From: a virus
Virus record (IMG/VR): IMGVR_UViG_3300017697_000003
Span: 1 to 36,472 of that record
Reading direction: 5' to 3' (one strand)
DNA length: 36,472 nt
Part shown: in pieces, positions 16,148 through 36,472 of the stretch
Numbering within the stretch: position 1 is the first letter of the stretch
How the letters are laid out: each line of letters opens with the position of its first letter
Made by a program: the position numbers and the translations under genes
Notes under the pieces: model-generated
The model's input: the letters and a program-made list of their open reading frames with translations, nothing else
What the model was told of the DNA's origin: nothing
The model's database searches: none

Positions 16148-16572
16148 ATGTAAGTGACTAACCTATACGCTCCTAGCAGGCGTTCTAAGGGATTGTAGGT
16201 AGCAAAACGATAAATCCCACATGGGTGTACCCCTAATCGTCTTAGAATACGTTCTGTGTCGATTACGAGGGTAGTTTATCCCCGTTTGCTTTTTGACTAT
16301 GCGGAGTGTGAGTGAGTAAGGAACGCTCCGGTGGCGGATTTTGTAGCGGGATTAGTAGGGGTAGGGGTTAGGTAGTCACGAGCATCCGTAAGGATGTGAG
16401 AAAGGTAGTAGTCTTGCGTGGCCGGCTGTGCGGAGTATCAGGTTTTACCTGTCATCGCCACAGAAAAAACGCATTCGCAACGGCAAAACGCTGGAATACG
16501 TGGCTAGTCTTTGGTAAAAAGGCAAGAATGGGTAGCAGAACAAGTGATTCGGTATAAGTCTTGGTAGTACAT

Positions 16573-16594: not shown

Positions 16595-16661
16595 TGCTGT
16601 CAGCCTATCCTTGCCATCGCCTACGTTAGCGTGAATGGAACTGGTACGTTACCACGGGGTG

Positions 16662-16732
16662 GCGGCGGGACGCTCGCCTCACCTTGCTCTAATGCTCGGA
16701 ACGAAAGTCAAGTCAGCCGCGTACACGCGACG
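16662..16732. repeat. Imperfect ~70-bp repeat, copy A
   Basis: This segment matches 16885-16954 at about 80% identity with one indel (counted by eye). The conserved blocks are CGGGACGCT, TTGCTC, GGAACGAAA, TCAGCCGCG and CACGCGACG. Each copy contains a CGCG-N4-CGCG hairpin; here TACA forms the loop (16718-16729). The stem is preserved while the loop differs between copies, suggesting structural selection. Confidence 0.8.
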
Positions 16733-16827: not shown

Positions 16828-16884
16828 CTTTGCTACTTTCTTTTTTAGCAAAAAGCAAAGTAGATCTTACGTGACCACAGGCGT

Positions 16885-16954
16885 GCTGCGGGACGCTGGC
16901 ACGACTTTGCTCAGATGTTTGGAACGAAATCAAATCAGCCGCGGGCACGCGACG
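16885..16954. repeat. Imperfect ~70-bp repeat, copy B
   Basis: Second copy of the element at 16662-16732, in the same orientation, 223 bases downstream. Its hairpin is CGCG-GGCA-CGCG. It ends about 40 bases before the module terminator. Confidence 0.8.
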
Positions 16955-16992: not shown

Positions 16993-17037
16993 AAAAAGAA
17001 GGGCAGCCCACCGGAAGCAGGCCGCCCTTTCTTCAGT
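16993..17037 (-). terminator. Bidirectional terminator downstream of the amidoligase module
   Basis: Stem AAGAAGGGC-a-GCC / GGC-c-GCCCTTTCTT with a loop of about 10 bases. On the minus strand it is followed by TTCTTTTT, ending the replication and amidoligase transcript about 65 bases after the glutaminase stop. On the plus strand it ends TTTCTTC. Confidence 0.75.
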
Positions 17038-17099: not shown

Positions 17100-17951
17100 T
17101 CAGTCGTCTCCCAGCGCCCAGGGACCCGTGATAGGTACTGGTGTGGCGTACTCATCCTGCCAGTTCCAGCCACCGTCTACAGTATACGTGTAAGACTTAG
17201 GCTTGGGACTAGACTTTAGTGTCTGAGTTGATGCGGTACCGAATTCGTACCACGCCTTGCCGAGGGAGTGCTGCAAGTTCATCTCGTAGTCAACACGTCG
17301 CAGTGTCAAGGTGTCCTTACATATACGGTACACCCTACCCTCGGGAAGAGTAGGCTGTAGACGAAACGTAACATCAGGCGCTACGGCTTTGATAACCTTG
17401 AAGGATTGCTGCAGGTTGGAAGACCATATCAGGAACCTGCACTGATTCTTGATAGACGAAACCCAAGCAACGTCAAGGTCACCACGAGACATACGACAGA
17501 TGTATGCTTCGTTGTCTTCCAACCACTGTACTGTACCGTAACCACGAAGGTCACCTACGGTTTCCCGTTGTGACACTCGGTCAGCTAGGACCTCGCTATC
17601 GACTATGTATTTATGGGGTGCGTTATAGATTACGCCGTTGTGCATGAGTGCGATGTCTCCGTATTCATAGGGATGTTGGTTAGCAATGGTGATTTGTCCG
17701 TGTGTAGCATGGCGTGTATGCCCTAGCATTATGGGAGCAAGGGGGGTGCGCCGGTTACCGCTGGCTGGAACCATGCACCCGATACCTCGGGCGATAGATT
17801 CATAGCCTTCGCCTGCGGTCATGTAACCCCAGGAGTCGGTACCACGTTCAGACATAGCGATCTCAAGCTCGGTTGTAACCACGCTTGCAAGCCAGTCTGC
17901 TTTATCATTAGTGATGAGGTCATTACGTACGATTCCAAATAGTCCACACAT
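17100..17951 (-). CDS. Class II glutamine amidotransferase (stand-alone glutaminase)
   Basis: 283 residues from the ATG at 17951, chosen because these enzymes expose Cys2 after Met removal (MCGLFGI); AAAGGA lies 9 bases upstream. The N-terminal nucleophile fold has RGTDSWGY (36-43), HTRHATHG (78-85, including the glutamine-binding Arg80), NQHPY (91-95), the oxyanion Asn-Gly in HNG (104-106) and D118 in VDSEV. All equivalents of the GlmS/PurF glutaminase site are present. No sugar-isomerase or PRTase domain follows, so it only releases ammonia from glutamine and needs a partner. The amidoligase gene ends inside its start region, so the two are coupled. The last ~100 residues are unlike known GATases and may dock the partner. 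Confidence 0.9.
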   Translation of the reverse strand: MCGLFGIVRNDLITNDKADWLASVVTTELEIAMSERGTDSWGYMTAGEGYESIARGIGCMVPASGNRRTPLAPIMLGHTRHATHGQITIANQHPYEYGDIALMHNGVIYNAPHKYIVDSEVLADRVSQRETVGDLRGYGTVQWLEDNEAYICRMSRGDLDVAWVSSIKNQCRFLIWSSNLQQSFKVIKAVAPDVTFRLQPTLPEGRVYRICKDTLTLRRVDYEMNLQHSLGKAWYEFGTASTQTLKSSPKPKSYTYTVDGGWNWQDEYATPVPITGPWALGDD

Positions 17952-17952
17952 A

Positions 17953-19392
17953 TTAGAAGGTCCTTTCAAGGGTTACGATAGCATTCTCTAGTTCGTCAGT
18001 GTCATTGGTGATGGCAGCCCGTACAAACTCACGGGATACCGAAACGCAAGCAAGCAGTTGCTCCTCGGTTATCAGGGGTACATCACAGTCGGTGTCGCTT
18101 GGGGTGTAACCGTCAGGGTTATCCGAATACGCAGGGAACAAACGGAACTCTACGGTCTTCGAGTAAGACTTCAAGTTATTCAGGTTGAGGTCAACGTATC
18201 TGTCAAGACCTGCTCGGCTGGAGCCGGTAGTCAAGATGTTACCGTAGTATTCTACCTCGTGGTCGTAATGGGTGGTGTTCCTACAGTACTCACTATTGTG
18301 TCTAACATCTGGCAGTGCGTCCCAGACTTGAGGTCCGTAGTCCTTCCACAATGTAAGCAGTCTGCTGACAGACACTCGGTCAAGACCGGTACCGTCAACG
18401 TGAACGTGCAGTCCACAACCGAGGCTAGCCTGAGCGCCATTGTTACGTAACAACCGATGCAGTCTTGTCAGTACGTTGGTTGCAACCTCTTGCCGCATCG
18501 GTGACGTACACAGTTCGACTGCCACGCCGCTGGAACCGTCAGGCTTGCGAGTGATTAGGTTATCAACGCAGAACTCAGCTAACTGCGCGACGTCCTTACG
18601 TGGTACGGTATGCAGTTCGAGTTCGACACCTACCGCCAGTCCTTCCTTGCCTTGCATACAGATGTTGTGACTCTGCATACTAAGAGCTGATTGACCTTCT
18701 CTAACGGGAGGTAGTGGCGCTCTCCAGTAACGAGAACCGTCCGATTCGACAGTCCACGCACACTGACACATGTGCGCTGACTTGGCACAGTTCTGACAAC
18801 GGGCGGGCATGTCGAGGTCACGTAACAAAGTACGAGCTGCCTCTCCACTATAGGTGAGTCGGAGGTCGTTCGGCCACCGGGTATCATATGTTCGAGCGGA
18901 GAAGTTTATGGATGACCCGTCGGTGAACTGACTAAGCCAGCCGCGTGCGTTACGCGATAGCTCTGTCCGAAGGGCATGCACCTTAGCCTTGTCAGCTCTA
19001 CGTAATCGGTTCCTGTAATCACCGTGTTCGAGAACGAGTCGCCAGTTCACCCATTGAGAACCCGGTACTAAGTGCGGGAACTTCTTCTCCAAGCATCTGA
19101 AGTAGGCACGCATTGAACGAGAATGGTAACCTGTAGGTACGTAGTCACTGGAAGAGTTGCCGGTACGAATACGCTCTTCACATTGTGTTGTGAACAGGTT
19201 ACGGAATCGTACTCGCTCATCAGCAATGAGTTCGCTCCATGTCATGGCCGAAAACCTCATCGCAAAGCTAGGAGTTATCGTTACTGGTTGACACCGGTTA
19301 GCCTTGTGAAGGGTACGGTACATCGTCATCAAGTCTACGAAATCGTAATTCCTCAGAGCTGAGGGTACTGTGTATTGGTGGTTACATGTCAT
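17953..19392 (-). CDS. Amidoligase (COOH-NH2 ligase, GS/GCS-like fold)
   Basis: 479 residues. Residues 1-110 form an N-terminal domain shared with the next protein upstream. A Cys cluster C199-x2-C202-x6-C209-x-C211 probably binds zinc. The catalytic domain (about 250-425) has VGVELELH (E257, E259), KPDGSSG then AVELCTSP (E293), GCGLHVHVDG (H329, H331), NSEYCR (366-371), and YVDLNLNNLK then TVEFRLFP (E415, R417), the ordered motifs of the amidoligase superfamily, which uses ATP to join an amine or ammonia to a carboxyl group. The neighbouring glutaminase would supply ammonia. The target is unknown; family context suggests peptide, cell-wall or protein modification. Ribosome-binding site AAAGGA precedes the ATG within a duplicated leader. 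Confidence 0.85.
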   Translation of the reverse strand: MTCNHQYTVPSALRNYDFVDLMTMYRTLHKANRCQPVTITPSFAMRFSAMTWSELIADERVRFRNLFTTQCEERIRTGNSSSDYVPTGYHSRSMRAYFRCLEKKFPHLVPGSQWVNWRLVLEHGDYRNRLRRADKAKVHALRTELSRNARGWLSQFTDGSSINFSARTYDTRWPNDLRLTYSGEAARTLLRDLDMPARCQNCAKSAHMCQCAWTVESDGSRYWRAPLPPVREGQSALSMQSHNICMQGKEGLAVGVELELHTVPRKDVAQLAEFCVDNLITRKPDGSSGVAVELCTSPMRQEVATNVLTRLHRLLRNNGAQASLGCGLHVHVDGTGLDRVSVSRLLTLWKDYGPQVWDALPDVRHNSEYCRNTTHYDHEVEYYGNILTTGSSRAGLDRYVDLNLNNLKSYSKTVEFRLFPAYSDNPDGYTPSDTDCDVPLITEEQLLACVSVSREFVRAAITNDTDELENAIVTLERTF

Positions 19393-19423
19393 CAGTTAGT
19401 CCTTTGGTTAGTGTTAGTATCAA
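19388..19423 (-). repeat. Duplicated leader/ribosome-binding site, downstream copy
   Basis: 36 bases spanning the start codon, AAAGGA ribosome-binding site and upstream leader of the amidoligase match 19907-19942, the same region of the upstream paralogue, at 34 of 36 positions. This points to tandem duplication of the gene start and gives both genes the same translation signal. Confidence 0.9.
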
Positions 19424-19911
19424 ACGTACATGTTAGAGTAGAGGAAGGAAAGCGGGTATGGCTTGGGAGGTGGCGCGGTTTGCTCGATGGTGGCTAGTGC
19501 CTCGAAGTAAGCCACGAGGTTTCGCGCATTGGGTGAGTGCCGCATCGCGAAGGCAGACAGGGTCGTGGCCGCTGGACATAGTGCCCAGAACGGTGCGGGG
19601 TTTAGCGGTTCCAGTAGGTACGGCATCAACGGCATGTCAAGACGTCGGGAATCGCGGGCGTACTGGAGTAGGCCACCGAACTCGCTGCGGCATTCCTTGA
19701 GGAGTTCAATCCACGTAAGTCTGCTGAACCACGTAACTGCGTACGACTCAGGAAACTTGTGTTCGATTTCCATGTACGTCATCGCCCATGTTGACCTGGC
19801 ATGTGCGTGTAAACGTCGCAGGGTTGTCATCAAGTCCACGTAGTCTAGTGAGCGCAGCATGTTGGCTCCGACCTGGGTATCAGTAGGGAAGTTGTAGTTT
19901 GAATTCGTCAT
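19420..19911 (-). CDS. Stand-alone paralogue of the amidoligase N-terminal domain
   Basis: 163 residues. LRSLDYVDLMTTLRRLHAHA (19-38) aligns with amidoligase LRNYDFVDLMTMYRTLHKAN (13-32); over the 21-residue block 12 are identical. Two more blocks agree: LTWIEL with MTWSEL, and ARNLVAYFEAL with SRSMRAYFRCL. It stops before the Cys cluster and catalytic domain and ends in a Pro-rich tail. It therefore looks like a duplicated copy of amidoligase residues 1-110, perhaps a subunit, substrate-presenting or inhibitory partner. Leader and ribosome-binding site are also duplicated. It is not an out-of-frame fragment: the frame is open with its own start and stop. Confidence 0.85.
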   Translation of the reverse strand: MTNSNYNFPTDTQVGANMLRSLDYVDLMTTLRRLHAHARSTWAMTYMEIEHKFPESYAVTWFSRLTWIELLKECRSEFGGLLQYARDSRRLDMPLMPYLLEPLNPAPFWALCPAATTLSAFAMRHSPNARNLVAYFEALATIEQTAPPPKPYPLSFLYSNMYV

Positions 19912-19942
19912 CAGTTAGTCCTTTCGTTAGTGTCAGTATCAA
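19907..19942 (-). repeat. Duplicated leader/ribosome-binding site, upstream copy
   Basis: Second copy of the 36-base leader (see 19388-19423). Here it also encodes the last residues of the 84-aa gene, ending LDTDTNERTN. Confidence 0.9.
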
Positions 19943-20165
19943 GGGTAGCAAGTAAGTCAAGGTCAAGCGATAGCAGTACGTCAGAAGTCTTTCGTACTGT
20001 ACCACAAAGTAGCGTAACAGTATGTGTATCGGGTCTGTGGTTGAAGGCTACCTCATCCAGGTAACGACCTCGGAAGAAGCCACCACACGAGAACGGCGAG
20101 TTAGCCATGCTCTCGCTACGCTTTAGGCTGTTACACCTAAGCAGATTGTTTAGCGCAATCTTCAT
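19911..20165 (-). CDS. Small module protein, unknown
   Basis: 84 residues, MKIALNNLLRCNSLKRSESM at the start, then SPFSCGGFFRGRYLDEVAFN and a Leu/Asp-rich C-terminus. Its ATG overlaps the previous stop (ATGA) and its own stop overlaps the next start, so it is firmly in the operon. I recognise no domain. Two cysteines (C10, C27) and C54 do not form an obvious metal site. Being fixed between the amidoligase genes and the 157-aa gene suggests a shared role. Confidence 0.7.
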   Translation of the reverse strand: MKIALNNLLRCNSLKRSESMANSPFSCGGFFRGRYLDEVAFNHRPDTHTVTLLCGTVRKTSDVLLSLDLDLLATLDTDTNERTN

Positions 20166-20635
20166 GCTGTCACCATAGCATTCTTGACACGCAGTGCGTC
20201 AGCTTTAGTCCTCATCGGATCCAAGCGGTAGTTCTGCCAGCAGTGACGATGCTCTAAGGTAAACGTATGCGGGTCGTGTTCGAAATGGTTCATCTCAGCG
20301 AACTCTACACGGTGAAGCACAACCTGTTGGGTCTTGCCTACCTGTACATTGATGTAAGACAAACACACTTCACCTGACACGTAATCTTTGGCAGGATACC
20401 AGTGTTCGAGAGTCATACAGAACTTGTTACGCAGATGCTTGGGACCTTCGCCAGGACGTACGTAGTATTGCAAGAACTTACTCATTGTATTCAAATGCTT
20501 GGGAAGGTTTATGCGAGGATTACTTTGTAGCTTTCTAAAGGCAGCACGTTTGGCAAAGGATTCCAGGCGCCGGATGAGGAAGCCGAGCTCGTCTGGAGAA
20601 ATTGAGGTAGCGGTGTCTGGGGTGATGATGATCAT
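20162..20635 (-). CDS. First gene of the amidoligase module, unknown
   Basis: 157 residues from an ATG with a well spaced AAAGGA ribosome-binding site. The N-terminal half is helical and basic (LGFLIRRLESFAKRAAFRKL), the middle is beta-like (EVCLSYINVQVGKTQQVVLH), and the C-terminus is His-rich (FEHDPHTFTLEHRHCWQNYR). No family recognised. As leader gene of a GATase/amidoligase operon it might be the substrate protein, a binding partner or a regulator. All of these are inference. It is the first gene after the structured 835-base non-coding block. Confidence 0.75.
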   Translation of the reverse strand: MIIITPDTATSISPDELGFLIRRLESFAKRAAFRKLQSNPRINLPKHLNTMSKFLQYYVRPGEGPKHLRNKFCMTLEHWYPAKDYVSGEVCLSYINVQVGKTQQVVLHRVEFAEMNHFEHDPHTFTLEHRHCWQNYRLDPMRTKADALRVKNAMVTA

Positions 20636-20658
20636 GTCGATTCCTTTAGTTGAGGGTG

Positions 20659-20759
20659 AAAGATTTCACTCGCCAGACTATGGAACAAATAGTTGTGTAA
20701 CGGTGACGGGTCTTGGGACAAACGCTGAACTATTTGTGACCAAGCATGGTGAAATCTTT
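20659..20759. repeat. Nested inverted repeats upstream of the amidoligase module
   Basis: Outer arms AAAGATTTCAC (20659-20669) and GTGAAATCTTT (20749-20759) are perfect complements, as are inner arms ACAAATAGTT (20685-20694) and AACTATTTGT (20728-20737). They fold into one long stem-loop about 25-125 bases before the first module gene, suited to an operator, transcript leader or processing site. Confidence 0.75.
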
Positions 20760-21038
20760 TGCAATCAACGTGAAGAAGGGAGCGACATGAGCAGCAGCAG
20801 CACAGACAACGCGAACAAACCTCGATTTTGTAGGACAGATTGGCGAGTCAGCCGGAGACTGGAAGCCCCCGCCAGAACTTTTTGCCTGTGCAAAAAAAAG
20901 ATAGATTCAAAAGTAACTTCACGCAGTGAACGAGCTTGCGAGCTTGGTTGCTTTTGTCCTTCTGAAAGCAAGCGGTTCGCGCTTTCAGGTTGCTTGCGAT
21001 TACAAACGCACGTCCTTTGCGCTCGTCAAAGGTAAGGG

Positions 21039-36131: not shown

Positions 36132-36472
36132 CTACTCGCTCTCGTCTCCACCTAGGGAGAGCCCCCGTGATATGAAGTCACTCGCTCTGTCAAGCAAGCT
36201 CGGTGGGCTCTCTGCGGCAGATTCCGTTTGCACAGCAGCGTTTTCGGCGGATGGTGGAGCGTACATTGTTCGGCCTGGGTCTATGTCGGTAGCGTTTTCC
36301 GCTCTTCTAATTTGGCCCGATTGGGTGAGGGGGTTATCGGTTATGTGCTGTTGAGCACTCTCCATGATATCCTGTAGCGCTGCTAAAGCTCTTTCATGTC
36401 GCCACCCCCCAATAAGCCAATCAGACGAAAGAGAACCTATGCCAGTCATCTCGCCGATGGCCGCACGTTCTC
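36132..36472 (-). CDS. C-terminal part of the 761-aa internal virion protein
   Basis: Continues the frame starting at 1990. Bases 36428-36472 repeat 1-45, so the new sequence is 36132-36427, encoding the last ~98 residues, ending LDRASDFISRGLSLGGDESE. Starting at the internal ATG (36449) would give a 105-residue protein, but the circular join shows it is not a separate gene. The tail is Asp/Ala-rich and ends one base before the next start. Confidence 0.9.
   Translation of the reverse strand, partial: ERAAIGEMTGIGSLSSDWLIGGWRHERALAALQDIMESAQQHITDNPLTQSGQIRRAENATDIDPGRTMYAPPSAENAAVQTESAAESPPSLLDRASDFISRGLSLGGDESE
36428..36472. repeat. 45-bp terminal direct repeat (right copy)
   Basis: Identical to bases 1-45; see the left copy. 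Confidence 0.93.

Follow-up and report, generated by a model that had tools for sequence, protein, structure and literature searches.

An operon of this phage carries the N-terminal part of an amidoligase gene twice, once as the front of a complete enzyme (479 residues, here called A) and once as a free protein of 163 residues (B) encoded directly before it. The likeliest role of B, to which we give a probability of about 0.5, is that of a retained non-catalytic partner of the system formed by the amidoligase and its glutamine amidotransferase (GATase), or of a target-binding protein. The window, which is the whole virus record of 36,472 bases, can be identified as phage DNA from its terminase, polymerase A and structural genes, and the genes in question form a tight minus-strand operon in the order 157 aa, 84 aa, B, A and GATase, joined by an ATGA overlap (157/84), a TGATG overlap (84/B) and gaps of 27 nt (B/A) and 1 nt (A/GATase; Table 1). 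Both of the reading frames that an earlier note had picked out of this DNA exist. Amidoligase-GATase modules are of a known kind, whereas the free N-domain paralogue is new.

Table 1. Features of the amidoligase operon and their positions in the window
Feature	Position	Strand	Remarks
157-aa ORF, first gene of the operon	20162..20635	-	ribosome-binding site AAAGGA; no family match
84-aa ORF	19911..20165	-	last ten codons are leader copy 1; stop overlaps start of B (TGATG)
Leader copy 1, 41-nt repeat	19907..19947	-	AAAGGA ribosome-binding site and start of B; 90% identical to copy 2
B, 163-aa free N-domain protein	19420..19911	-	E 6e-6 to A; no family; predicted to be without catalytic domain
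B residues 19-81, homologous to A13-66	19669..19857	-	BLASTP
Leader copy 2, 41-nt repeat	19388..19428	-	ribosome-binding site and start of A; stop codon of B inside
A, 479-aa predicted amidoligase	17953..19392	-	PF12224, E 2e-11; conserved residues intact; modelled fold like YbdK / glutamine synthetase
A N-domain (residues 13-66), common to B	19195..19356	-	BLASTP
Cys knuckle of A, C199-x2-C-x6-C-x-C211	18760..18798	-	precedes catalytic domain
Class-II glutamine amidotransferase, 283 aa, MCGLFG start	17100..17951	-	PF13522, PHROG 4736
Terminator-like hairpin 3' of the GATase gene	16999..17029	-	14 pairs and T run; consensus match only

The start regions of the two genes (19388-19423 and 19907-19942) are identical at 34 of 36 bases, as previously counted, and the repeat proves longer than this, extending to 41 nt at 90% identity with a spacing of 519 nt. 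It occurs twice in the window with no further occurrence there, and no match to it was found in the other fetched loci. When the 37 nt lying 5' of each start codon are compared, those of A and B agree at 32/37 positions and are the most similar pair among all upstream regions of the window, the next pair reaching 21/37. Copy 1 (CTT GAT ACT GAC ACT AAC GAA AGG ACT AAC TGA) provides the last ten codons and the stop of the 84-aa gene, and this stop overlaps the ATG of B; copy 2 is spacer, within which the TGA stop of B (19420-19422) falls. Since copy 1 ends the 84-aa gene and copy 2 holds the stop of B, the arrangement points to a tandem duplication whose unit began at the end of the 84-aa gene and reached into the N-terminal region of A. 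The unit that is present twice, 519 nt apart, comprises the end of the 84-aa gene, the ribosome-binding site and the N-terminal part of the amidoligase gene, and the tandem duplication including leader and ribosome-binding site that the earlier note had proposed is supported both by the 41-nt repeat and by the similarity of A and B anchored at their start codons. Stoichiometric co-production, which it had read into the matching translation signals, is not shown by them: the start contexts differ, with a TGATG overlap before B and a 27-nt gap before A, and copy 1 is also coding. Extension of the DNA comparison 5' of the leader gave no significant similarity, and neither an RNA structure nor a sigma-70 promoter found support as an explanation of the leader.

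At the protein level, residues 19-81 of B align with residues 13-66 of A at 37% identity (BLASTP E 6e-6), a score reached by 0/5000 shuffles (Gumbel p ~6e-6), so that the pairwise alignment suggested as a check yields significant protein similarity beyond the leader. The two are the top-scoring pair among all window proteins; if only the first 110 residues of every protein are compared they score 75 against 41 for the runner-up, and with low-complexity filtering in searches against all window proteins they are the sole pair with E <0.05 (4e-4 to 1e-3). The 12 of 21 identities counted in the first block are correct (LRSLDYVDLMTTLRRLHAHAR / LRNYDFVDLMTMYRTLHKANR). A match in three blocks over residues 1-110 of A had been described, of which the part up to about A66/B81 stands, while block 3 (A88-110 / B125-147; R..AYF..L) is not significant by itself, with p 0.07 locally and, against the rest of A, 0.42; B82-163 as a whole aligns with A at p 0.07. 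On these alignments the homology would therefore reach about A66/B81 only. Structure models of A and B show the same helix order over block 3, in an all-helical region, which is suggestive only of a wider likeness, both models being of low confidence (pLDDT 31-59 in this part of A; 38 for B, whose model is not usable) and the B model, unlike that of A, having been built with the other protein in its alignment.

A itself is predicted to be a complete amidoligase of the glutamine synthetase-like type, with an intact active site. Its match to PF12224 (Amidoligase_2) scores 44.6 bits against a curated cut-off of 22, and all of the catalytic motifs seen in retrieved viral amidoligases are present (GxExE, D, E, CGxHVHVD, R, RY..N and EFR, with conserved residues G255, E257, E259, D285, E293, C326, H329, H331, D333, R364, R398, N403, E415 and R417). 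The structure model is confident over much of residues 250-479, with pLDDT >85 in most of the catalytic core, and its best fold matches in the PDB are YbdK (1r8g, E 1.6e-5) and glutamine synthetases, with TM-scores kept low by the poor modelling of the N half. These enzymes share the catalytic fold with A in the model at ~10-13% identity; unlike them, A has an extra N-domain and a Cys knuckle. A sequence search of the PDB gave no significant match, and a Shiga toxin entry among the NCBIfam results for A was set aside as a chance match, with E 0.14 and a score of 11 bits where the cut-off is 720. Cys-knuckle motifs precede the catalytic domain in 33/123 viral amidoligase ORFs, as in A, and in many viral amidoligases there are two to seven of them (e.g., L095, L029, L124). 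Three loci (L036, L048, L052) have two amidoligase ORFs close together on one strand, so tandem duplication of the entire gene may have taken place elsewhere in the family.

The adjoining GATase, which matches PF13522 at 30.3 bits against a cut-off of 27 and has an N-terminal Cys, is the probable, putative source of ammonia for A. Such neighbours are known from LUZ24-like phages, e.g., UFV-P2 and tf (PMC3890496), and from OM43 phages (PMC10580990), and GATases were found beside amidoligases in six fetched loci as well as in Caudoviricetes ctUh1700 and Alcaligenes phage QDWS535. In all of these named phages, and in Pseudomonas phage JB8, a glutamine synthetase-like amidoligase adjoins a class-II GATase as it does here; most known phage modules have the same gene order, and in many Cys knuckles stand before the catalytic domain. 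Unlike the present operon, none was found to carry a free copy of the enzyme N-domain. The protein that precedes the amidoligase in the LUZ24-like modules of JB8, QDWS535 and ECBP2 was considered as a relative of B and proved unrelated on comparison. LUZ24-like phages also have extra ATP-grasp or COOH-NH2 ligase genes, whereas no such domains were recognised in the other genes of this operon (Pfam, PHROG, NCBIfam); in this it resembles locus L094, where only the amidoligase-GATase pair was seen, without these ligase genes. A ligase fed with ammonia by a co-transcribed amidotransferase is also described for MurT-GatD of Staphylococcus aureus (PMC3267633). The likeness is one of principle (ligase plus amidotransferase), and no relationship is claimed; the ligase there has a Mur-ligase fold and not a glutamine synthetase-like one. 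The amidotransferase of MurT-GatD belongs to a different GATase class from the one encoded here.

Scans of phages, plasmids, viral contigs and genome contigs, which reach close relatives best, returned no relative of B or of the A N-domain. The N-domain was in none of the 117 amidoligase stretches retrieved by motif, and two weak matches to free N-domain copies within amidoligase loci (L013, E 0.002; L100, E 0.009) were not accepted. There was likewise no match to A in a peptide-pattern search of viral contigs, to the C-terminal part of the GATase in a profile search of genome contigs, or to the module in the related phages L003/L011 and L004/L012 (polymerase 58%, terminase 77%). The nearest relative, L010 (IMGVR_UViG_3300012920_009085; terminase 83%), is a contig that starts within a GATase, with 46% identity over the C-terminal part, and ends before A and B would be reached. 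Since this GATase lies at the same place, the amidoligase-GATase module appears, from that part of it, to be shared with L010.

The duplication is probably old, because synonymous sites are saturated: in the aligned codons of A and B, identity is 51% at first, 55% at second and 32% at third positions (the codons were aligned by way of the proteins, which biases the first two figures upward and leaves third-position saturation unbiased), and the fourfold sites of identical residues agree in 2/11 cases. Against this divergence of coding sites stands the 32/37 agreement of the leaders (Fisher p 1e-7), a mismatch that the earlier note had overlooked. Since the leader is nearly identical while third positions are saturated, it would not be a passive relic of the same age as the coding part; we infer that it was held by its double duty, as a start signal and, in copy 1, as coding sequence, or by gene conversion between the copies. 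With its near-constant leader beside saturated coding sequence, the locus clearly exemplifies a duplicated start region that was maintained independently of its gene.

B has no match to Pfam, NCBIfam or PHROG amidoligases and belongs to no known family, and it has neither the active site nor the Cys knuckle of A, nor a GATase directly adjoining it; it appears to be without the catalytic domain and hence not an amidoligase. It does keep the core motifs of the shared domain, including hydrophobic and charged positions, and of the frames in its stretch its own scores best as coding sequence, yet weakly (0.06). An unselected copy at synonymous saturation would be expected to have gained stop codons, and since the frame of B is open, B is most simply a protein that was retained rather than left to decay.

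It might be supposed that A and B resemble each other by chance or through a local DNA repeat, B being unrelated beyond the leader, and the restriction of the similarity to about 63 residues, the failure of block 3 to reach significance and the modest filtered E-values would fit this. It is nonetheless highly improbable, as independent lines (the shuffle test, the rank among all pairs, the collinearity from the start codons and the leader repeat) concur. A by-product origin, in which the duplication served or was tolerated by the operon (as an extra start signal, or by translational coupling into A) with little selection on B, is unlikely. It would account for the leader being far better kept than the coding part and for the weak coding score, and B, which overlaps the 84-aa stop and sits just before A, could by its translation feed the start of A; set against this are an open frame of 163 codons and motif positions conserved at synonymous saturation.

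The order of events could also be reversed, such that a free B-like gene and its leader were duplicated first and an amidoligase catalytic domain, arriving from elsewhere, was then joined to the second copy, making B the original and A the chimera. This is unlikely, although the N-domain is in none of the retrieved amidoligases and unrelated N-extensions are common (55/123 viral amidoligase ORFs have >100 aa ahead of the catalytic domain), because the stop of B falls within leader copy 2, where one would expect a truncated copy that reached the junction to end; this position is the only hint of truncation. The earlier view that an enzyme gave rise to a non-catalytic protein survives in part: B lacks a recognisable catalytic domain and lies beside an intact A, but with no other amidoligase found to carry the N-domain, a free domain later fused to an amidoligase is also possible, and the direction is not shown. 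The present function of B may be the same under either order. That B serves the amidoligase-GATase pair as substrate or carrier, and not as a partner subunit, is very unlikely. Peptides and proteins have been put forward as what amidoligases modify (Iyer et al. 2009, cited in PMC10580990 and PMC7824862), and B is encoded directly before A, but its sequence ends in NMYV, and neither an acceptor tail nor a repeated Glu/Asp motif is obvious in it.

If B is a retained partner or target-binding protein, the system could work as follows. The class-II GATase would release ammonia from glutamine, and A would activate a carboxylate with ATP and then form the amide, so that glutamine-fed amide formation by A and the GATase is a plausible, putative chemistry. 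The N-domain would dock A to its substrate, to a host target or to a complex partner, much as the earlier note had supposed in giving it a role in recognising substrate or partner. Free B would employ this surface while catalysing nothing: it could join A as a non-catalytic subunit, or hold on to the target that A docks to. The more specific proposal that the amidoligase is a hetero-oligomer with its N-domain paralogue, the duplicated start signal setting the subunit ratio or the sharing of targets, is distinctly unlikely. Phage amidoligase-GATase modules are widespread, and in the papers covered here their substrates have only been guessed, the suggestions including cell-wall change, superinfection block and secondary metabolites (PMC10580990). 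A free copy of the amidoligase N-domain would be a ready bait for the target or partner of such a module.

Several non-coding elements lie around the operon. Nested imperfect inverted repeats with arms of 21 and 25 nt (20649-20769) head a stretch of ~830 nt that separates the polymerase from the amidoligase operon and in which no gene is convincing. Beyond the GATase terminator are two diverged direct repeats of ~90 nt (16645-16732 and 16868-16954; 76-86%), which gave no Rfam or tRNA match, fold no better than shuffles and were not seen in relatives. Further on, 5' of a 129-aa gene and the packaging operon, an element at 16226-16369 with the core CCCGTTTNCTTTTTNNNTATGCGGAGTGNGAGTGAGTA is kept at 74-90% in three related phages (L010:1016-1167, L011:3753-3840, L012:6323-6410) and is a candidate promoter or leader. 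The last ~30-40 bases of the record (36433-36472) recur near its start (1-45), so the record may represent a complete genome that was assembled as a circle.
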